This document shows positions 46,376 through 61,015 of a stretch of DNA of 64,000 nucleotides, one piece after another. The notes under the pieces are model-generated. The model ran no database searches. It saw only the letters and a program-made list of their open reading frames with translations, and was not told where the DNA came from. This stretch comes from Oceanipulchritudo coccoides (GTDB lineage Bacteria; Verrucomicrobiota; Verrucomicrobiia; Opitutales; Oceanipulchritudinaceae). The stretch's first letter is position 1. Each line of letters starts with the position of its first letter. The position numbers were made by a program, and so were the translations under genes. The stretch lies in assembly GCF_010500615.1 (NCBI RefSeq), contig NZ_JAAGNX010000001.1, positions 759,531-823,530 of the forward strand, read 5' to 3'.

Positions 46376-47266
46376 ATGAAATCCATACTCCTTAAACTTG
46401 TTGCCGCTCTTTGGCTTATTCCTCCTGCTTTCCTTGTAGCCGGTCCGCCGGAACCGCCGTCCGGATGGACCGAAGGGTATGTCATGGCAAATGGGATACG
46501 TCTGCATTACTGGCGGACAGGAGGAGACAAGCCGGTAATGGTCATGGCCCACGGGTTTTCCGACGATGGCTTGTGCTGGACCCAACTGGCCGTGGAGCTG
46601 ACGGATCAGTTTGACCTGATCCTTTTTGACGCGCGCGGGCACGGCTTGTCTGATGCGCCCAACCGGTCAGATCCAGCGGATGCCCAGGTCGAGGATCTTG
46701 CCGGTTTGATCAAGGCCCTTGAGCTCAAGAATCCAATTCTCATGGGACATTCAATGGGAAGCGCCTCCGTTGCCTGGTTTGCCGCACGCTACCCGGATGT
46801 CCCCAAGGCGATTATTCTCGAGGACCCGCGCCTCGTGGGAAGGTCTCCGCTTTCAAGTGGGGAAGTATCCGAGGAGGATCTCAAAAAGCGCGCCGCCACG
46901 ATACTGGAACAGAACAACAAGACTTACGATGAGATTGTTGAACACGGCCTGAAACAAAATCCTTCCTGGGGTGAAGCGGAAATCCGCATTTGGGCGGCCT
47001 CCAAACAGCGTCATCATCCCAATCTCGTTTACCGTACTTTCTCCCAGGACCGTCCTTCAACCAGTGACCTCTTCAAAAAGATCACCTGCCCGACGCTGAT
47101 CCTCAAGGCGGATGCAGGGGAGAAGCTCCGCCGTGAAAACGAGCAGGTCGCCGCACATCTGAAGAATGGCAAGCTTGTGCACATCGAAAGCGCTGGGCAC
47201 AATGTCCGACGCGAACAGAAGGAACGCCTGCTGCAGGCGCTCATGCCTTTCCTTCACAGTCTTTGA
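46376..47266 (+). CDS. secreted alpha/beta hydrolase
   Basis: A 296-residue protein with a signal peptide (MKSILLKLVAALWLIPPAF). The alpha/beta-hydrolase core shows AHGFSDDGLCW, RGHGLSD, the nucleophile elbow GHSMGSA (Ser126) and the late catalytic His in ESAGHNVR. Substrate unknown: an ester or lactone hydrolase. It lies 30 nt after galE in the same direction and is followed by a strong terminator, so it may be the last gene of the gal operon. Confidence 0.8.
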   Translation: MKSILLKLVAALWLIPPAFLVAGPPEPPSGWTEGYVMANGIRLHYWRTGGDKPVMVMAHGFSDDGLCWTQLAVELTDQFDLILFDARGHGLSDAPNRSDPADAQVEDLAGLIKALELKNPILMGHSMGSASVAWFAARYPDVPKAIILEDPRLVGRSPLSSGEVSEEDLKKRAATILEQNNKTYDEIVEHGLKQNPSWGEAEIRIWAASKQRHHPNLVYRTFSQDRPSTSDLFKKITCPTLILKADAGEKLRRENEQVAAHLKNGKLVHIESAGHNVRREQKERLLQALMPFLHSL

Positions 47267-47287: not shown

Positions 47288-47322
47288 AAACCCGTCACCA
47301 GTACTGGTGACGGGTTTGTTTT
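47288..47322 (+). terminator. strong rho-independent terminator of the gal operon
   Basis: A perfect 15-bp palindrome, AAACCCGTCACCAGT with ACTGGTGACGGGTTT (47288-47317), is followed by GTTTTTAAA. Confidence 0.9.
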
Positions 47323-50825: not shown

Positions 50826-53800
50826 TTACTGCTTCAAAAGGACCGTTTCAGCCGAGCTGAAGTCGTATACCCAGCGGTTTCCAAAAATGTATGACCAGGA
50901 CCCGCTTTCAAAATCGTAGATCCATGGAAATTCCATCCAGGCCCATCCGGAAGTATCCGTGTAATTGTAGTCATTTCCTGATGACAGCTCACGGGCCTGT
51001 AAATTTCCGAAAAAATAAAACCATGAACCGGCATCGGCATTGTAAGCCCAGTTGTCATCGTGCCAGATAAATCCGGTGGCGAAGACGGGTGGGGGAGGGG
51101 GTCTCTTGACGGTCAGGATCCGCACGGCTCCCGCCGGAATATTGATGGCAATTGCATCGGCACTGCTTTCCAATGTGCCGAGCGGGACCTCCTGTGAACC
51201 GAACTGGTCGAAGACTTCCCACTTTCCTTGAGTACTGCCGAGTTTCAATTGCACGGTGCGATTTGTCGGAGTGAGCAAGTTCGAATCCAGCAGCGCGACA
51301 AAGTAGGTGTCCGGGTCGTCCTTCTGTTGTGTGACCTGCCAGAAGCATTCGTTGTCCACGTAAAACAGTTGGTTGCCGCGCTGGGTCACCAGCTCATTCA
51401 TAATGGAGTCCCTGGCCTCTTCCAGACTGGCAAATTCGCTCCATGTGTCGCCATTTGTTTGATACGCCCGGTTGCACCATGGCAGAGCCTCGAGCTCTGC
51501 CCGCGTGGCATAGGGAACGATCGGCGAAAATCCACTGGGCGAGGTGGGGAGAAGGTTATCCCAGCGCCTTTTTGCATTGAGGAGGATGGCGGTCCCGTCG
51601 ACATCGGGAACATCCGTGTAGGCGTCCCAGCAAGCCAGCCGATTGATGACATAATTCCTGGCTGGGGGCGCATACTTGTAGTAATCGTGATTGATGCTCT
51701 GCTCACGGAGACGGATAAAATTCGGATCGTGAAGGGCTGCCGCGACCGGTGAGAGGCCCTTGAGCTGATCGCGTTCAGGCGAGTTGGGATATACACCGCT
51801 TTCCACCAGACGGAGGAAGTTCCAGATGCCCTGACGGTAAGGGTTACTCCACTTCAACGCGGGGTCGTTGGTGTCTCCAAGCAGATACATCGGGTTGTCC
51901 CGGTTGATGATTGAGGTGATCCTGAATGAATTGGCGCCCATCAGATACTGGGAAAACAAGTGCCGGAAGACGACATGGCCATTGCGCATGCCGCCAAACT
52001 CGACAACCCGGTTGGCGGCAAGGTTGTCCCCAATCGAATTGCAGCCCCAGTTCTCCACGTCACCATTGAGCCACAGTCCCACTCGCTCGGCGAAGCTCAG
52101 GTCGGGCACTGTGACGTTTGAGTTCTCGACCCCGAGGGTCAGGACATCCTTGTAGGCGGGGAACAGGGCGCTGGCCTTGTCCGGTGCAAGTGCGGAAAAA
52201 ATGGCCCCCTTGCCACACAGCATGAAATAGGGCGGGGCCACTCCGAGTTGCGCGGAGCGGGCGAGCAGGGCGTCCATGTGGGGAATATATTCATCGATAT
52301 AGGTGCTTTCCCGGAGCTCCTTTGAACGGGCCAGCATGTAGGTTTCTCCCTCGAAGATGGAAGCTTCGAAGCAGTCAGCGAGCGTTTCCGGGTCGATGAA
52401 AATCCGTGACCCGTGCCCGACGATAAACATGAAGTGCACCTTTCGCTCAGCGAGGGCCCGACTGAAGTCAGTGAGGGCTTGCCGGAGGTCGATCGCCCCG
52501 TTGTTGGTCATCCGGTCCACTAACCCGTCAATGTCCCCGATTGAGGAGACAAACTTGACCCGCTCCGGTTGGTATCCGGAAACTCCACCCAGTTCGTCGC
52601 GCCATTCCTGGACGGCGTTGCGGATCGAGTTGGCCCGCGAGCGGATATTCGATTCTGTCATACGCCATCCCATGGAGCCGTTCATGGTACCGATGTAATA
52701 AATCGGTTTTCCCGCGACTGCCTCTGTGCCGGAAAAATTCTGAATATCCGCGTGGAGTTCATCCAGCGCATCGCGGACTTCCCTTAAGACGCCCCGGCCA
52801 TCGATCGTCTTGGCGTCCGTTGTCCACTGGCCCGTTGACAGGTCGACAAGATAGAAGTGATCATCCCCGTTTGGCGGCCCTGCAAGAATCATCTTGTCGA
52901 GCCCGCCGTTGCGGTCCTCGAGGCGTGCCCCGTCGGTGAAGTGATAGAGGGTGTGTGCGTATCCGTGATCGGTCGGACGGAAGACCCGGAACCTGTTCAG
53001 GTCGACGCTGTTTCGCGTGTCATAATTTACCAGATACAAATCATCCCCGTAAATGGTCAGCATTTCCGGCCCGGGATAATTGTTCCAATCCCTGAAATCG
53101 CCGGGAACACCCTGTTGCAGGAGGTATTTGCCCGTATTGGTGGTCTCGGAAACATTTTCGTAGTGGAGTTCCAGATCCAAGGCTTCCCCGGCAGGGAGCA
53201 TTGTCGAAAGGAGCCGGGTTCGCGCACCATCTTCCGGATGAAGAACGCCCCAGTGGGCGACGAGCTCGTCGTCCCCGTCGCCGTCCATGTCGTAGGCCCA
53301 TGGCAACTGCTTGTCGGTCCAGCCAAATGCCTCCTGGATGTTGTTGTAATTCAGCCCGTTTGAGCCCCAGTAGGCCGGTCGTTCCATCGTGTCCAAATCC
53401 GTGATCTCAAAGTAGTTTCCCCCGCTGAAATTCAACTCGTCGTAAAAGGAAATGACCTCGTCCCCGCCGATTCCGTCGTAGTTGCCCACCACTACACGCC
53501 GTATCACGCCCGGAACACTGCTCCTTGTCGAAGGGGGGAAGATCGTTCCCACCGTTGTTCCGTCTTCGGCAAGTATATAGATCCGGCCATTCACTCCACC
53601 TGTGACGATCCGGATTTCCCCGGCACTGTTCTTGCCCGTGTCCGCCGAATACAGCGCTCCCGGGAATCCGGTCCCCGTTTGTGGCGTCCAGTCGCCCAGC
53701 AGCACGCCGTCCCTGGACAGGATCCGCAGGTGGCCGTCTGTTCCGGGTAAAAGCACCTCTTCCCCGGGGTTGGCACTGTTGGCCTCCCCGGTCGCTAGCA

Positions 53801-54068
53801 TGATGCCAAAACTCGTCGGCGGAGTATATTGCCACAGCTGGTTGTTCTCCTCCGGATCCGAGATGGCCGGTCGGTCAAAGGCGATCACCTTCCCGTTCAC
53901 CGTCATACCCACCACATAATCCTTCGCCCCCACTGCATCAAAGTCCGCCGTCCGCACATGGATCAGGTTTTCCCCCTGTGTGGTGTAGGGCTGGAAGGTG
54001 CTCTGCCCACTCAGGACGCCTGCAGCAGTTGTTGAGAGTAATAAAATCAGGCTTTGGGCTAGCTTCAT
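50826..54068 (-). CDS. large secreted beta-propeller protein, candidate lambda-carrageenase-like (GH150) enzyme
   Basis: A 1080-residue protein with a signal peptide (MKLAQSLILLLSTTAAGVL). Residues 20-400 form a beta-propeller-like region with FG-GAP/VCBS-type loops (VVVGNYDGIGGDE, DMDGDGDDELVAHWG). Residues 450-960 form an alpha/beta part without a known catalytic signature (HFMFIVGHGSRIFID, LACWDAYTDVPDVDG). The C-terminal 85 residues are a W-rich module (GWAWMEFPWIYDFESGSW). An N-terminal propeller joined to a unique C-terminal part is what is described for lambda-carrageenase. With sulfatase and galactose genes nearby, that identity is attractive but unproven. Confidence 0.4.
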   Translation of the reverse strand: MKLAQSLILLLSTTAAGVLSGQSTFQPYTTQGENLIHVRTADFDAVGAKDYVVGMTVNGKVIAFDRPAISDPEENNQLWQYTPPTSFGIMLATGEANSANPGEEVLLPGTDGHLRILSRDGVLLGDWTPQTGTGFPGALYSADTGKNSAGEIRIVTGGVNGRIYILAEDGTTVGTIFPPSTRSSVPGVIRRVVVGNYDGIGGDEVISFYDELNFSGGNYFEITDLDTMERPAYWGSNGLNYNNIQEAFGWTDKQLPWAYDMDGDGDDELVAHWGVLHPEDGARTRLLSTMLPAGEALDLELHYENVSETTNTGKYLLQQGVPGDFRDWNNYPGPEMLTIYGDDLYLVNYDTRNSVDLNRFRVFRPTDHGYAHTLYHFTDGARLEDRNGGLDKMILAGPPNGDDHFYLVDLSTGQWTTDAKTIDGRGVLREVRDALDELHADIQNFSGTEAVAGKPIYYIGTMNGSMGWRMTESNIRSRANSIRNAVQEWRDELGGVSGYQPERVKFVSSIGDIDGLVDRMTNNGAIDLRQALTDFSRALAERKVHFMFIVGHGSRIFIDPETLADCFEASIFEGETYMLARSKELRESTYIDEYIPHMDALLARSAQLGVAPPYFMLCGKGAIFSALAPDKASALFPAYKDVLTLGVENSNVTVPDLSFAERVGLWLNGDVENWGCNSIGDNLAANRVVEFGGMRNGHVVFRHLFSQYLMGANSFRITSIINRDNPMYLLGDTNDPALKWSNPYRQGIWNFLRLVESGVYPNSPERDQLKGLSPVAAALHDPNFIRLREQSINHDYYKYAPPARNYVINRLACWDAYTDVPDVDGTAILLNAKRRWDNLLPTSPSGFSPIVPYATRAELEALPWCNRAYQTNGDTWSEFASLEEARDSIMNELVTQRGNQLFYVDNECFWQVTQQKDDPDTYFVALLDSNLLTPTNRTVQLKLGSTQGKWEVFDQFGSQEVPLGTLESSADAIAINIPAGAVRILTVKRPPPPPVFATGFIWHDDNWAYNADAGSWFYFFGNLQARELSSGNDYNYTDTSGWAWMEFPWIYDFESGSWSYIFGNRWVYDFSSAETVLLKQ

Positions 54069-54097
54069 ATATCAAGAATTAGGGTGGTGGGGTGGTT

Positions 54098-54385
54098 CTC
54101 CAGGAAGAGAGGGGGTGGACGGGAGAATCTTGATTTGCCCAAGTTGGAAGACAAGAATAAATGTAAGTGTTGCGTAAATATATAATCTTTTACATAAGGG
54201 CTGTATGGTGAAGGAGCGAAGGTGGATAAATGGATGGAGATGGGCGATTGGGCTGGTGCTGCTGCCTTCCCTGGGACAGGGGGCGGAGGTAAAGGTCGAG
54301 GATTTCAGTGGGATTCAAGCGTTCAAGATAAGGAATCTGGTGGGGACCGAGGTGAGTCTGACGAATTATGGGGCGCGGATTGTTT
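54098..54385. repeat. repeat unit, left half: galM promoter and 5' end (intact copy)
   Basis: The segment from about 54098 through the first 60 codons of galM is clearly related, with indels, to 58473-58750. Shared blocks include the TTGCGTAA element, the start ATGs (54205 and 58579) and CAGTGGGATT. This is the intact original. Confidence 0.8.
54170..54197 (+). promoter_or_regulatory. imperfect dyad in the galM promoter
   Basis: TTGCGTAAA (54170-54178) and TTTACATAA (54189-54197) form an imperfect dyad (7 of 9 positions) with a 10-nt spacer that contains TATAAT, 8 nt before the galM ATG. A degenerate copy is seen at 58544-58571. It may be an operator of the LacI-type regulator at 61264. Confidence 0.4.
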
Positions 54386-55317
54386 CTGTGGTTGTGGCGG
54401 ACCGGGTCGGTGAGAAGGCGGACGTGGTTTTGGGCTATGACTCGGTGGAGGGCTACATCAACGGGATCAAGCGACCATATCTGGGCTGCATGGTGGGCCG
54501 GACGGCGGGCCGGATCAGCGGGGGGCGATTCATGCTGGACGGGGAAGAAATCCAGCTGTCGGTGAATCGCGCACCGAACCACCTTCACGGCGGGGAGAAG
54601 GGCTTTGACAAAGTGGTGTGGGAGTCGGAAGTCGTGGAGAACGGGGTCAAGTTCAGTTATCTTTCACCTGACGGGGAGGAAGGGTATCCGGGGAACCTGT
54701 TTGTGGAAGTGGTTTACACGCTTGGAGAGGACAATGCGCTCCGGATCGCCTGCACGGGGAGGACAGACAAGGCAACGCCGTTAAGTCTGACCAATCATGC
54801 GTACTTCAACCTGGCTGGGGAGGGAAGTGGGACGGTGTTGGATCATATGCTGGCGATGCCCGGGGAGAGCTACATGCCGAGGGACGGAACGGGTATTCCG
54901 CTGGGAGGCTGGGAGAAAGTGGGGGACAGCCCGTTTGACTTCCGCGCACCGAAGCGGATCGGGCGGGACATTGTTTTGGACCACGAACAATTGATTCTGG
55001 CACGTGGATATGACCACAGTTGGGAAATTCCGGACACTGGGCTTGAGCTGGAGCTGGCGGCCACCCTGCATGAACCGGAGAGCGGGCGCTTTCTTGAGGT
55101 GTATACGGATGAGCCAACCTTGCATGTGTACACGGCCAATTATCTTGATGGACAGCTGAAAGGGAAATCCGGGAGGCCTTACGGGGCCCGCGAGGCAATT
55201 TGTCTGGAGACACAGCACCTGCCGGACAGTCCGAATCATCCAGATTGGCCCGACACGATCCTTCGGCCGGGTGAAAGCTACTCGAGCACGACGGTGTATA
55301 AATTCGGAGCGAAGTAG
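54205..55317 (+). CDS. galM: aldose 1-epimerase (galactose mutarotase), secreted
   Basis: A 370-residue protein with an N-terminal signal (WRWAIGLVLLPSLGQGAE). It has the mutarotase core: NYGARIVSVVV, RPYLGCMVGRTAGRI, APNHLHGGEKGFDKVVW (catalytic His) and LTNHAYFNLAGEG. It interconverts alpha and beta anomers of galactose or glucose, here in the periplasm. Related DNA recurs near 58.5 kb as a pseudogene. It is divergent from the propeller gene. Confidence 0.9.
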   Translation: MVKERRWINGWRWAIGLVLLPSLGQGAEVKVEDFSGIQAFKIRNLVGTEVSLTNYGARIVSVVVADRVGEKADVVLGYDSVEGYINGIKRPYLGCMVGRTAGRISGGRFMLDGEEIQLSVNRAPNHLHGGEKGFDKVVWESEVVENGVKFSYLSPDGEEGYPGNLFVEVVYTLGEDNALRIACTGRTDKATPLSLTNHAYFNLAGEGSGTVLDHMLAMPGESYMPRDGTGIPLGGWEKVGDSPFDFRAPKRIGRDIVLDHEQLILARGYDHSWEIPDTGLELELAATLHEPESGRFLEVYTDEPTLHVYTANYLDGQLKGKSGRPYGAREAICLETQHLPDSPNHPDWPDTILRPGESYSSTTVYKFGAK

Positions 55318-55359: not shown

Positions 55360-56079
55360 ATGCAGACAACCACAATGACACAAAAAATGGCAAGACGAGC
55401 ACTCGGTACCCTTCTATTGATGACAATCGCAGGCCTCTCCATCGAGGGCGCCTCAACCAGCGTCAAGCTGCTGCAGGGAGGCTCTCCCGGATACCCGGTG
55501 GAGCTCAAGGAGCAGGGCGAAGAGGGCGTTGCGAGGATCAGGGTCGTCATTGGCGACGTGGGCAATGTCATGGACGCGAGTATCCAATCCGCGAGCCATC
55601 CCGCCTTCGGGGAGGCTGCTCTTGACGAAGTGAAAAATTGGCATTTTGCCCCGGCGACGGAGGACGGCGTACCGGTAAGCCAGACGGTGACCATCCCGAT
55701 CGAGTTCAAGTTGCCCTTTGAGGACAAGCTGAACGCTGCCATGAAACGGAAGGTATTCGTCAATCTCGACGAATTGACGGACACGGTGTACAGCGCAAAG
55801 AAGGATCTCGGCCAGCGGATCAAGCCGAAGGGAAAAAACAGCAAGACCGGTGCGTATCCCAAAAAACTGAAGGGCAGCGGCCTGAGCGACAAGGTCCGTG
55901 TCGAGTATGTGATTACACCCGAGGGCCGGGCGGTGAATCCGAAAGTCGTGCAGATCGAGCACCAGGAATTCATGATCCCGGCGATTATTCAGGCGGCCAA
56001 ATTCCGCTTCAATCCACCGACCTTGAAGGGCAAGCCCGTCTACGCGGAGGAATTTTACGTCATCGAGTTTTCCGAGTAA
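55360..56079 (+). CDS. secreted protein with two TonB-C-like domains
   Basis: A 239-residue protein with an N-terminal signal or anchor (RRALGTLLLMTIAGLSIEG). Two TonB C-terminal-like domains are visible. The first covers residues 38-130 (GVARIRVVIGDVGNVMDASI, then ALDEVKNWHFAPA). The second covers 165-239 (VRVEYVITPEGRAVNPKVV, then AAKFRFNPPTLKGKPV). It may deliver energy to an outer-membrane receptor or act as an envelope protein. Its 3' half is duplicated at 58748-58975. Confidence 0.75.
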   Translation: MQTTTMTQKMARRALGTLLLMTIAGLSIEGASTSVKLLQGGSPGYPVELKEQGEEGVARIRVVIGDVGNVMDASIQSASHPAFGEAALDEVKNWHFAPATEDGVPVSQTVTIPIEFKLPFEDKLNAAMKRKVFVNLDELTDTVYSAKKDLGQRIKPKGKNSKTGAYPKKLKGSGLSDKVRVEYVITPEGRAVNPKVVQIEHQEFMIPAIIQAAKFRFNPPTLKGKPVYAEEFYVIEFSE

Positions 56080-56106
56080 ACCCGATCAACCGGCAATGCC
56101 GATCGG
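55852..56106. repeat. repeat unit, right half: 3' end of TonB-C gene plus symporter tail (copy 1)
   Basis: This stretch is near-identical to 58748-59002 (constant offset of 2896 nt). The last 21 bases (56086-56106) are identical to the 3' end of the symporter gene (58982-59002), although no symporter gene is present here. Confidence 0.9.
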
Positions 56107-56107
56107 C

Positions 56108-56355
56108 CAGTTGACGAATGTCGCCGACCTCAGCCTTAAACCGTTCGAGTAGGAAAAGAACGAGATTGAGAAGACACTGGATGTGATGGATCCGCTCAAG
56201 CGTTACCGGGCTATTCCCTTACCCCGGACCGTGACTGGGTTCCTCCCGAGTGGCTTGCGGATCGCCAATTTGGATTCATGAAGTCCTTTGAAGAGGAGGA
56301 CTATCGCCTCGTTCAGCTTGATCTGGCTGCTCGCCCGGATAACCCCCATGCTTAG
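56108..56355 (+). pseudogene. truncated, frameshifted 3' remnant of an unidentified gene
   Basis: From the duplication breakpoint the frame reads QLTNVADLSLKPFE, a stop, EKNEIEKTLDVMDPLKRYRA, then in another frame YSLTPDRDWVPPEWLA and FMKSFEEEDYRLVQLDLA to a TAG at 56353. Together they resemble the C-terminal end of a real protein with one in-frame stop and one frameshift. The family is not recognised. The 5' part is missing at the breakpoint. Confidence 0.5.
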
Positions 56356-56448
56356 GCACGAACAAATGAAGCTCCTGGAAGATTTGGCATCTTTTCGTCT
56401 AAATTCAGGTAAAGGACCTGCTGCTCCATCTAAAGCGGGTCCAGCGAA

Positions 56449-56613
56449 ATGATGGGCATGGGAAATGCCAAGTCTATCCCCAGCACCGTGATCCCGGTTG
56501 GTGATCCGCAAGCTATTGAACATCATGCGGAACTCGCCAGAACTGGACCGGCTGTGGGGACATGCATAACGTCTATCAAAGGAAAGCTGCCTGATACCCG
56601 GGGGGGTATTTGA
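56449..56613 (+). other. 54-codon open frame, probable remnant
   Basis: ATG at 56449, TGA at 56611, product 54 residues (starts MMGMGNAKSIPSTVIPVGD). No ribosome site or known domain. It may be part of a decayed gene. Confidence 0.2.
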
Positions 56614-56788
56614 GGAATCTTTTATTGTAGAACACTAACGTGGGGTCCCTCTACAGGCCTGTCGGTTTGAGAGATATCTGGATTTCTCCATTTCCCACAC
56701 AGGCGCAGGCTTTCTTTGGGGTGATATTTGCTCGAATATTTTGCCATCGAAACCATCGATCTTGGAATTTACCATTAAGAGAGTCGCC

Positions 56789-56875
56789 TCAAACGGTGTC
56801 ATTCCCGATCACATTGCCTTGCGCCGCTACGAGGACGGGGAGCAAAAGCGAGGCGAAGACCCAGACCAGCCTCAT
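56789..56875 (-). pseudogene. signal-peptide relic of a secreted protein gene
   Basis: Beginning 16 nt beyond the GH43-like stop codon on the same strand, an ATG (56875) encodes MRLVWVFASLLLPVLVAAQG, a convincing signal peptide, then seven residues and a stop at 56789. The rest of the gene seems lost or shifted in frame. Confidence 0.45.
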
Positions 56876-56891
56876 CGAAGGTTGCTGGGCA

Positions 56892-58436
56892 CTATTGATC
56901 TGAGACCTCCAATCGAATAAAGACGGGGGCTCCGGTGGGCACCGAAATTTCGGCCGTGACTCGCTCAAAGATCTCGTCGAGGGTTTCCGTCCCGATTTCG
57001 AGCTCGGGCGCATCGACCCAAGAATCACTGAGGAGGGTGGAAGAAGTCTGCGGCATATAGGACACTCCGGGGTTGGCCGCGCTTCGCCGCCGGTAGCGGA
57101 ACTCAATCCCATTCTCAGTCGCCACCAAAGTCGGCAGGATATCGGGTTCGCTGGCGACGAGCGGATTCCCGCCGAGGGCAAACTCCATGAGGTTCAGGAG
57201 GCCGTCGCCATCTTCGTCCCCTTCCTTGTCGCCGACGCTATCGGGCCCATTCTCGACATTGTTCAGATTGGCCCAAGCGCGGAAGGGTTTGATTTCGCCA
57301 TCAATCTCCCACGACCATGGCGTCTGCAGGCTCCGGTCGGTTGTATTTTCACCCTCCCAGCGCACGGTCGGGTGGCCGTTTTCGTCCCAGTCAATCGGGC
57401 ACATGATGACGCGCCCCTTCTCGACCGGATGAGAGGTGACCTCCTGAAGCGGGTAGCGGTCGCCGCCATAGACCCACTGCTCCCCAATCTTCATGATCCA
57501 GCGATGCTGCGAGGCATGCGAGCGCATGATCCGGTTGGCTTCCGAGCCAAGTGGACGGAAAGGATTCATCCCGATTTGGATCTCTGCGGGCGCATCGTTC
57601 GGGTCGGGAGTATAGGTCGGATACCAGGGGCCTTCCAAAGCTGGAGCGGTTCGGTAATAGCAATCAGACCCCATCCAACCGCCGACCCCGTCGAAAGACA
57701 TATAGTAAATGTTGTTTCTCTTGAACAACCAGAACGCCTCGCGCTGTTTCTCCACCTGATCGGAAACGATCGGAGGGAGGATGTTGTTGCTGGCGTCGCG
57801 CTTCAAGCCCGTGAATTGCTCGTTCAATTCAAAGATATCGACAAAGCGGGTTGAACCTCCAGTCGGGTCGTCGAGTTCCGCACATTTCATCGAGACAATG
57901 ATAAAGGCCCGGTTGCCTTCACGATAAGCGGACATGCCGCCCGACTCATAGTGCGTGAAGGTATCATTGGCAACATACCCCGGGTGTCGCGGCGTCAAAT
58001 TCACCTTGGGGGTGATTTGAGTATAGGTGCCCTCGACATCGTTGGTATCGCTTTCATAGAACCAGATACCCTTCCCGATTAAGACGTACCGGTCGGTATT
58101 CGGGTTATAAAGAAGAGTCACATTTTTCGTTCCCTCGGACGACTTGGCCAAGCGCCTTACCCACGTCCAGTCATCACTGCCAAAGGTCTTGGATTTATAC
58201 AGATGGATGGAATCATTAGTGGGATTGCTGCCGACCCAATAGTAGGTGTCGCCCACAATCGTAATGTGCTGGCCCATACTGGCATTGATCTCAATCCCGC
58301 GGTCATCATACCACTGAACGTCGTTCGTGATCGTCGCGGCTTCCACGACCGAAACAACCGAAAGGAACGCCATTGTGGCAAGGGAAAGATCGCGCCAGCT
58401 CTGGCGGAAGACTTGTTTGTAAAACAACATTTTCAT
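56892..58436 (-). CDS. secreted GH43-like glycosidase (galactan 1,3-beta-galactosidase type)
   Basis: The ATG at 58436 is preferred to an in-frame TTG at 58448. The product has about 514 residues: a signal peptide, then a five-bladed propeller opening WYDDRGIEINASMG and TYYWVGSNP, a pattern like the INAHGGG...YYWYGE of GH43 subfamily 24 exo-beta-1,3-galactanases. The usual His is replaced by Ser here. Near the C-terminus is a calcium-type hinge (DEDGDGLLNLMEFALGG) and a beta domain common in these organisms. It is likely to act on galactan. Confidence 0.65.
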   Translation of the reverse strand: MKMLFYKQVFRQSWRDLSLATMAFLSVVSVVEAATITNDVQWYDDRGIEINASMGQHITIVGDTYYWVGSNPTNDSIHLYKSKTFGSDDWTWVRRLAKSSEGTKNVTLLYNPNTDRYVLIGKGIWFYESDTNDVEGTYTQITPKVNLTPRHPGYVANDTFTHYESGGMSAYREGNRAFIIVSMKCAELDDPTGGSTRFVDIFELNEQFTGLKRDASNNILPPIVSDQVEKQREAFWLFKRNNIYYMSFDGVGGWMGSDCYYRTAPALEGPWYPTYTPDPNDAPAEIQIGMNPFRPLGSEANRIMRSHASQHRWIMKIGEQWVYGGDRYPLQEVTSHPVEKGRVIMCPIDWDENGHPTVRWEGENTTDRSLQTPWSWEIDGEIKPFRAWANLNNVENGPDSVGDKEGDEDGDGLLNLMEFALGGNPLVASEPDILPTLVATENGIEFRYRRRSAANPGVSYMPQTSSTLLSDSWVDAPELEIGTETLDEIFERVTAEISVPTGAPVFIRLEVSDQ

Positions 58437-58472
58437 GTTTGAACTCAAGGGTCAGGGTTATAGGGTGGATTC

Positions 58473-58750
58473 TCCCTTAAGAGAGGGGTTTGAGGCAGGA
58501 ATCTTGAATTGCCGGGAAGTGAGGACAAGCCAAAATGTAATTGTTGCGTAATAAATGTATCTTTTGCATGAAGAGAGTATGATGAAAAGGGAAGCTGGAA
58601 AAACGGATGGAAATGGGCCTTGGGGCTGTTGATGATGCCACCATTCGGGCATGGGGCGGAGGTAAAAATTATGGCATTCAGTGGGATTAATGGGTATTAT
58701 TTAAGGAGCTGTGAGGGGACGGAGGTGTGTGCGACGAACTACGGGGCGCG
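58473..58750 (+). pseudogene. galM pseudogene (promoter and 5' end only)
   Basis: The sequence follows the galM promoter and 5' end (copy at 54098). ATG at 58579 matches the galM ATG at 54205, but a frameshift yields a stop after 17 codons. Similarity ends at 58750 (GGGGCGCG), where the TonB-C fragment begins. Confidence 0.85.
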
Positions 58751-58975
58751 TATCCCAAAAACCTGAAGGGCCGCGGCCTGAGCGACAGGGTCCGTGTCGA
58801 GTATGCGATTACACCCGAGGGACGGGCAGTTAATCCGAAGGTCGTGCAGATCGAGCACCAGGAATTCATGGTCCCGGCGATCATTCATGCGGCCAAGTTC
58901 CGGTTCAATCCACCGACCTTGAAGGGCAAGCCCGTCTACGCGGAGGAATTTTACGTCATCGAGTTTTCCGAGTAG
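58748..58975 (+). pseudogene. TonB-C gene fragment (second copy, N-terminus lost)
   Basis: It encodes the last 75 or so residues of the TonB-C protein with few changes (VRVEYAITPEGRAVNPKVV, then PTLKGKPVYAEEF). An ATG in the galM part (58727) could give 82 residues, but there is no signal peptide or ribosome site. It is joined to the galM part by a deletion of 1478 bp, relative to the original. Confidence 0.85.
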
Positions 58976-58981
58976 GCTCAA

Positions 58982-61015
58982 TCAACCGGCAATGCCGATC
59001 GGGCTGAAGACCACGTAGAGCATCAAGGTCAGGATAACGACTCCGATGCCGGCGATCCGGGCCCCTTTGGAGGCTTCCAGGGCAACGGCGTTGTTGGCCT
59101 TGAAATCAATCGGCTTATCCAGCGGCTTGATGAGGGTGATGATTCCCATGACCAGAATGCATAGGAAAAAGCAGATTGCCATGCGGTTGAGGAAGTTGAT
59201 GTCTGGCGCGGCAAATTTCAGGGCCGGGTAGGCGATGATGTTGGTTAGGAGGCCGACTACACCGCATATGCGGGGTCCCCGGTGAAACAGCAATCCGAAG
59301 GCGAAGACCGCGAGGATGCCCGGGGAGATGAGGCCCTGGCCTTCCTGGATGACCGTGAAGATGCTGTTGCTGATCTTGGGATTTCCCAGCATCGGGGCAA
59401 GGACGACGGCAATGACCGCGAAGACCGCCACGCTGGACCGGCCGAGCACGACAATCGTTCTCTGGGAGGCGTTCTTGTTGATGTGCTGCTTGAAGATATC
59501 CATCGAGAAAATGGTCGAGGCCGCATTCAGCATGGCGGCAAGTGAACTGACAACCGCTCCAAGAAGAGCCGCGAGGACAAAGCCGAGGAGGCCGGTTCCC
59601 TGAGGGAGGACATTGGAGAGCAGCTGTCCGAGGGCCGTGTCGTATTTGTATCCAAGTAGTTTTTCCGTGGATACAGAGGCATTGGATGCCCTGACTGTCT
59701 CGTTGTAGACGGCAAGCTCAGCCGCCAGGGCTGGATTGGCGCTGGCAAAAGCGTAGTCGTCGCTCTCAAAGACGACCGCTGCGGAGACGCTGGCCTGAGC
59801 CGCATTGAATTGATCCTGGCTGAGCGGGAACACGTGCCCGTTGAGCATTTTTGCACTGTTGACGCTGTCGAGATCCGGGTAGACGGCCAGGACATAGCGG
59901 CTGTCAGGGATCGAAGCCAATTGCTCCACCGAGGGGGCCATTTCCACGCTGACGACTGCGCTGGCCGGGTTGGCGGCAAGATACTTTGCAAGGACCGGGC
60001 CGTTATCCTTGCCAGCGGCAATGTGCATGTTGCCGGCAAACAGATTGAAGGCCATGATGCCGGGAACAACGATGACAAACGGGATCAGGAGCTTCATGAA
60101 GGCCGAGAAGACAATGCCCTTCTGTCCTTCAGCGAGCGAGGCCGAGCCGAGTGTCCGTTGTGTGATGTACTGGTTTAGTCCCCAGTAATAGAAATTGGGA
60201 ATCCAGAGGCCGAGCAGCAGGGCCGTCCATGGCAAGGTGCTGTCGGTCGCCGGCAGGAACATGTTCAGGCGAGTACTGTTCAGCTCCATGAAGCGGGCAA
60301 AGGCGCCCGTTTCCGGACTAAAAGTACGGATGACCACCTCGCCGGTCTTCACATCGGCAATGCCTGCCAGCGATTCGGCGCTGCCCAGCATCCCAAAGGA
60401 AAAATACATGATGATACCGCCTCCGATGATGAGCGCGCTGCCCTGGATAAGGTCGGCCCACGCACAGGCCTTGAGCCCACCGGCGATGACGTAGATCATC
60501 GCAATCAAACCAATCACAAGCGCGCCCAGCTGAAGCGAAATATCGACGCCGCGCTCAGCCGCGATTGTCCGGATGGTGAGGGCACCCGAGTATGTGACCG
60601 CTCCCAGAAGTAGTAAATAAATGAATACCGTTCCCGCGGCCATGATGATGCGGGCCCCCGAATTGTAGCGGTATTCCAGGAATTCCGGCATTGTGTAAAT
60701 GCCCGCCTTCAGGAAATAGGGGAGGAAGGCAAAAGCCACCACGACCAGCGTGATTGCCGCCATCCACTCGTAACTCGCAATCGCGATGCCAATGTGGCTC
60801 GCCGCGTTGCCCGACATCCCCACGAATTGTTCGGTGGAGATGTTGGCGGCGATCAGCGAAAAGCCGATCAGCCACCACTTCAGTCCGCGGCCAGCCAGGA
60901 AATAGTCACTGGCAGCGTGTTCGCCTTTCAGGTCCTCGCCGCGGCTTTTATATAGCCCGATGGAGACAACAGCCGCGACAAACGCGAAGAATACAATCAG
61001 GTCAAGGATGCTCAT
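58982..61015 (-). CDS. sodium:sugar symporter (SSS/SGLT family)
   Basis: The ATG at 61015 gives MSILDLIVFFAFVAAVV at the first membrane helix. The 677-residue protein has about fourteen membrane segments, with SLIAANISTEQFVGMSG and the sodium-binding area SSLAAMLNAASTIFSMDI. A polar stretch of about 125 residues (roughly 365-490) lies where vSGLT has about 35, likely an extra periplasmic domain. It probably imports a galactose-type sugar. It is divergent from the LacI gene. Confidence 0.85.
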   Translation of the reverse strand: MSILDLIVFFAFVAAVVSIGLYKSRGEDLKGEHAASDYFLAGRGLKWWLIGFSLIAANISTEQFVGMSGNAASHIGIAIASYEWMAAITLVVVAFAFLPYFLKAGIYTMPEFLEYRYNSGARIIMAAGTVFIYLLLLGAVTYSGALTIRTIAAERGVDISLQLGALVIGLIAMIYVIAGGLKACAWADLIQGSALIIGGGIIMYFSFGMLGSAESLAGIADVKTGEVVIRTFSPETGAFARFMELNSTRLNMFLPATDSTLPWTALLLGLWIPNFYYWGLNQYITQRTLGSASLAEGQKGIVFSAFMKLLIPFVIVVPGIMAFNLFAGNMHIAAGKDNGPVLAKYLAANPASAVVSVEMAPSVEQLASIPDSRYVLAVYPDLDSVNSAKMLNGHVFPLSQDQFNAAQASVSAAVVFESDDYAFASANPALAAELAVYNETVRASNASVSTEKLLGYKYDTALGQLLSNVLPQGTGLLGFVLAALLGAVVSSLAAMLNAASTIFSMDIFKQHINKNASQRTIVVLGRSSVAVFAVIAVVLAPMLGNPKISNSIFTVIQEGQGLISPGILAVFAFGLLFHRGPRICGVVGLLTNIIAYPALKFAAPDINFLNRMAICFFLCILVMGIITLIKPLDKPIDFKANNAVALEASKGARIAGIGVVILTLMLYVVFSPIGIAG

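Follow-up and report, generated by a model that had tools for sequence, protein, structure and literature searches.

Partial segmental duplication with decay of one copy, gene conversion between paralogues and deletion at short shared bases are well-known ways in which bacterial DNA is rearranged, and they are the closest described systems for the locus reported here. It lies in a window of 64,000 nucleotides from Oceanipulchritudo coccoides (the window being the whole stretch of DNA analysed, whose own positions are used throughout), and centers on a 21-bp repeat, TCAACCGGCAATGCCGATCGG, with exact copies at 56086-56106 (site A) and 58982-59002 (site B). We consider it likely, with a probability of about 0.8, that a partial segmental duplication took place in a gene cluster for using a sulfated galactan and that the 21 bp mark its end at the breakpoint. 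A limited literature search on the mechanism gave no evident bacterial parallel among the papers listed, and we do not claim that the locus itself is undescribed.

The 21-bp repeat and its two sites

The window search recovered both exact copies of the repeat, and the one at B encodes, as the original prediction had stated, the C-terminus of a symporter (...SPIGIAG*) on the minus strand. No third site was found in the 64-kb window at up to three mismatches, and none of 100 shuffled sequences contained two matches. In the organism's own genome (3.52 Mb) the same two sites are the only exact ones and nothing further matches at up to two mismatches, which rules out a common genome repeat, an outcome that would have refuted the original prediction by its own terms. 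A single site with three mismatches (C3:53651-53671) has no symporter among the listed ORFs of at least 150 aa in its region (L065), ruling out a second symporter as the source of that match. The full exact match is one base longer than the repeat (22 bp, 56085-56106 = 58981-59002), and it is one of only three exact direct repeats of at least 20 bp in the window, all of them at an offset of 2896:

55945-55974, exact direct-repeat run of 30 bp
56008-56078, exact direct-repeat run of 71 bp
56085-56106, exact direct-repeat run of 22 bp

The only exact inverted repeat of at least 20 bp in the window is a perfect 30-bp palindrome, AAACCCGTCACCAGTACTGGTGACGGGTTT, at 47288-47317; an ORF ends 22 bp before it, at 47266.

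The copy at 56.1 kb had been described as isolated, a lone relic of the symporter. It is instead the end of a 257-bp homologous block (block 1, 55850-56106 versus 58746-59002; 239/257 identical, 93%), gapless and at the constant offset of 2896, which takes in the 3' third of a TonB-C gene (its last ~76 codons), the final 21 bp of the symporter and the 6 bp that separate them. Another block (block 2) occupies 54069-54366 at A, ~1.5 kb upstream of block 1, and lies directly upstream of block 1 at B; 94 of 136 aligned bases are identical in its intergenic part (69%) and 114 of the first 161 aligned bp in its galM part (71%, with one gapped codon). Genome-wide, each block occurs at A and B only, and the two are collinear, with the same order and orientation at both sites. 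The features of the locus are as follows:

50826..54068, minus strand, lambda-carrageenase-like gene, divergent neighbor of copy A (Pfam CGLA_M, 1.5e-9)
54069..54204, no strand, divergent intergenic (promoter) region, copy A (94/136 identical to copy B)
54205..55317, plus strand, galM, intact copy A (Pfam Aldose_epim, 1.3e-82; 71% identity with B over the first 161 aligned bases)
55360..56079, plus strand, intact TonB-C gene of copy A (two stretches matching Pfam TonB_C, 8.7e-29)
56085..56106, minus strand, 3' end of the symporter gene as present at copy A (exact over 22 bp, where the homology has its right edge)
56102..56358, plus strand, 3' end of a decayed sulfatase gene (tblastn with an intact 625-aa own-genome paralogue)
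56478..56699, plus strand, relic of an insertion sequence (IS) right end: transposase C-terminal coding part and end ...CATTTCCCACA (alignment to G002 L199)
56892..58448, minus strand, GH43-like gene, divergent neighbor of copy B (weak PDB matches, 3nqh 6e-6 and 3vsf 0.16)
58439..58578, no strand, divergent intergenic (promoter) region, copy B (alignment to copy A)
58579..58744, plus strand, galM' relic, first ~160 bp, frameshifted near the start (114/161 identical, one gapped codon)
58745..58975, plus strand, TonB-C' relic with the gene's 3' third (an 82-aa frame keeps the second TonB_C domain open)
58982..61012, minus strand, sodium/solute symporter, intact (Pfam SSF, 7.9e-53)

At site A, the lambda-carrageenase-like gene (minus strand; its protein has a propeller-domain match below the cut-off and no PDB match) is followed by the promoter, galM, TonB-C and the symporter end, up to a breakpoint at 56106/56107; the site thus stops 21 bp inside the symporter and continues with the decayed sulfatase 3' end. 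Site B consists of the GH43-like gene (minus), the promoter, galM' fused to TonB-C', a 6-bp gap, the symporter (minus), whose last 21 bp are the second copy of the repeat, a LacI regulator and a sulfatase (plus). Homology between the sites breaks off abruptly within the symporter gene (56106 / 59002), which B has intact, and on the other side the alignment of block 2 reaches the start codons of two unrelated leftward-reading genes. The motif TGTTGCGTAA (54168-54177 and 58542-58551) is confined, in the whole window, to the two promoter copies, and is possibly a candidate regulator site for the nearby LacI-type gene.

This arrangement partly supports the proposal that the TonB-C gene had once sat directly beside the symporter. 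The truncated copy at 58745-58975 is still 6 bp from the symporter stop, so that a TonB-C/symporter adjacency persists at B, but the 21 bp do not show that the intact gene ever had an adjacency of its own; at A they may be a copy made from the TonB-C/symporter junction. As had also been proposed, other material lies between the intact TonB-C gene and the symporter, namely the decayed sulfatase 3' end, the IS end and the GH43-like gene.

The relics at B meet at a readable fusion. The sequence is GGGGCGCG|GAT in galM, CCGGTGCG|TATCCC in TonB-C and GGGGCGCGTATCCC at site B, so that the junction in B is GGGGCGCG/TATCCC, with GCG common to both parents. As read from the alignment, this single junction is shown to account for what B has lost, the greater part of galM and roughly two thirds of TonB-C. 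We think that the 82-aa frame of TonB-C' is dead, though its use is conceivable; both TonB-C' and galM' at B are relics that annotation should not list as genes.

Block 1, whose copies differ at 18 of 257 sites, is more alike than block 2 (93% versus 69% and 71%; Fisher 1.7e-9 and 3.5e-9), and synonymous sites show the same contrast (15/37 versus 7/50 differ, p 0.006). The differences in the TonB-C block are unevenly spread: 56008-56078, a run of 71 sites, has none, for which the chance is 0.0014 at the rate seen upstream, and 3 of 6 bases differ in the spacer between the TonB-C and symporter stops. The symporter end, non-coding at A, is unchanged over 21 bp there; this would have a chance of 4e-4 if it diverged like the intergenic region and of 0.22 if it diverged like the TonB-C block. 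The pN/pS of the TonB-C block is low (0.034/0.140, from small counts of 6 and 7 differences).

The interval between the copies

The sulfatase relic starts at the breakpoint; its matched part ends at 56289 and the frame continues to a stop near 56358. It was identified solely through an own-genome paralogue, an intact 625-aa sulfatase at C1:864555-866432, which in tblastn matches 56102-56215 (47% over 38 aa, E 3.9e-5) and, collinearly and with ~77 codons skipped, 56209-56289 (48% over 27 aa, E 0.017); the relic pieces gave no informative match in Pfam, NCBIfam or the PDB. The paralogue carries HEAT-type repeats behind its sulfatase domain and is the last in a row of same-strand ORFs (C1:856-866 kb), several of which are sulfatase-like.

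These matches weigh on another reading of the locus, which we regard as possible though improbable: a larger duplication would have included the symporter, regulator and sulfatase, a later deletion at A would have left 21 bp of the symporter and the sulfatase end, and conversion would have homogenized the TonB-C ends. The order at A (TonB-C rightward, symporter end leftward, sulfatase end rightward) does match that at B (TonB-C' rightward, symporter leftward, LacI and sulfatase rightward). However, the relic at A resembles the 625-aa sulfatase encoded elsewhere and not specifically the 494-aa sulfatase beside B (the 625-aa protein matches the relic at 47% and the 494-aa neighbor at only 22%, in another part of the protein), and no other remnant of a symporter or of LacI was seen between A and B.

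Further into the interval, the IS end recurs in the genus. At locus L199 of G002 (same genus) similarity stops at the same end (...CATTTCCCACA), and at C1:389428-389572 of the own genome (locus L086, which shares 56556-56702) it stops within 3 bp of that end; a more distant relative in G011, 51% over the piece, is a 390-aa transposase with an integrase core (rve_3). In all, two genomes of the genus carry the end at three places (56478-56699; L086:1500-1646; L199:1503-1723), one copy adjoining what we take, from the translations, to be a Fic-like ORF and another a presumed VapBC-like pair, and a tRNA scan for an integration site at L086 found none. Whether the DNA of the GH43-like gene, or copy A itself, arrived with this element appears doubtful: the interval does contain its right end, and the genome has related ends at other places, as does G002, but the end is internal, touching neither edge of the duplicated blocks, and the IS DNA search (one window match only) found no left end or second copy in the interval.

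The stretch 56700-56891 separates the IS end from the GH43-like gene. The likely start of this gene is the ATG at 58438; its protein falls into no Pfam family at E 0.001, and a search of 88 other genomes of the order gave nothing for it at E<=1e-20, with a single weak Streptomyces record among plasmids; NCBIfam gave nothing useful for it or for the carrageenase-like protein.

Symporter, galM and TonB-C in relatives

The original prediction had suggested looking for galM, TonB-C and the symporter as adjacent genes in relatives, and no such arrangement was found. The nearest symporter (82% identity) belongs to G003, of the same genus, and neither galM nor TonB-C is on its 12-kb contig; the same holds for the 1.5-kb flanks of eight relatives' symporter loci, G003 included. 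In a scan of named genomes, TonB-C was present at none of the best 80 loci of 586 confirmed symporter relatives. At least nine of these 80 have galM near the symporter, always on the same strand (L102, L110, L117, L141, L149, L167, L173, L176 and L179), a count that is a lower bound since many of the 80 loci have short flanks; the nine records are named as Planctomycetes-type, Verrucomicrobia-type and Sumerlaeota bacteria. The pairing suggests a hexose transporter-mutarotase unit. The galM-symporter partnership is thus recurrent, whereas the convergent order of galM-TonB-C and symporter is known only from the relic itself.

From the TonB-C side, neither galM nor a symporter of this type is present at any of the loci from 13 other genomes of the order (the neighborhoods covered were these 13 plus G043 and G030, out of 20 listed besides the own genome), and G043, G030 and G020 have neither gene among their ORFs of at least 100 aa. 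The TonB-C protein gave 58 pattern matches in the genome collection, none of them a relative, and searches at the DNA level and at high protein identity found the locus in no close strain. None of these relatives shows the proposed ancestral order, which is a point against the partial duplication favored below.

Proposed order of events and comparison with known systems

In the partial duplication that we favor, the order galM and TonB-C (rightward) facing the symporter (leftward) would have been present at B before the deletion. The promoter-galM pair would go back to an older duplication, and the TonB-C/symporter end, being far less diverged, would have passed from one site to the other at a later time, through gene conversion or another duplication, with A's symporter end, itself without function, coming from B. 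The contrast in divergence does not agree with one duplication of uniform age, and identities of ~70% versus 93% call for at least two steps. The low pN/pS suggests, within the limits of its small counts, that both TonB-C copies were functional for much of their divergence, and the deletion at B was therefore probably late; B's upstream part would have been retained as the promoter of the GH43-like gene.

On the sequence evidence, then, the 21 unchanged non-coding bp at A and the divergence contrast make the promoter-galM pair look old and the TonB-C/symporter end look young. Against a second copying or conversion stand the 6-bp spacer, with its 3/6 differences, and the uneven TonB-C differences; neither would be expected from a single age or from a simple conversion tract. 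Faster evolution of signal-peptide and promoter DNA could also explain part of the contrast, which weakens the inference of two ages. It is a long shot that the relic at B still recombines actively with the working gene, conversion keeping the TonB-C 3' ends alike while promoter and galM drift, and that the 82-aa TonB_C domain is made as a free-standing domain.

An assembly artefact, in which the copies stem from misjoined or mixed-strain contigs, is very improbable: the genome is a 52-contig draft, but both copies are on one 1.46-Mb contig and differ at 18/257 and at ~30% of sites in the two blocks, with different flanks. Least credible of all is a repeat due to chance or function (e.g., a terminator) and not to descent, since chance is ruled out by the shuffles, none of which reproduced the repeat, and by the single diagonal of all direct repeats of at least 20 bp, and since the 21 bp, although they hold the short inverted repeats CGGCAATGCCG and CCGATCGG (read from the sequence), are collinear with the 257-bp block, fold no better than shuffles (z -0.30, 0.71, -0.91), have no terminator-like site or Rfam match and do not recur at other gene ends of the own genome at 0-2 mismatches.

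The locus is an ordinary and fairly well resolved rearrangement that involves no new principle: one sulfated-sugar cluster rebuilt by copying, deletion and IS traffic, in which some of the steps can still be put in order from what is left. With partial segmental duplication and decay it shares the two collinear blocks, the intact set next to a truncated relic and the sharp edge inside a neighboring gene, and it departs from that pattern in the unequal divergence of its blocks (~70% versus 93%). As in gene conversion between paralogues, one stretch of an otherwise old pair is far more alike, but donor, left tract edge and direction are unreadable here, since the middle of both galM and TonB-C is missing at B. 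Finally, the galM'/TonB-C' fusion at GCG (5/6 in GG[C/T]GCG) resembles deletions at short shared bases, with an overlap so short that chance is possible.
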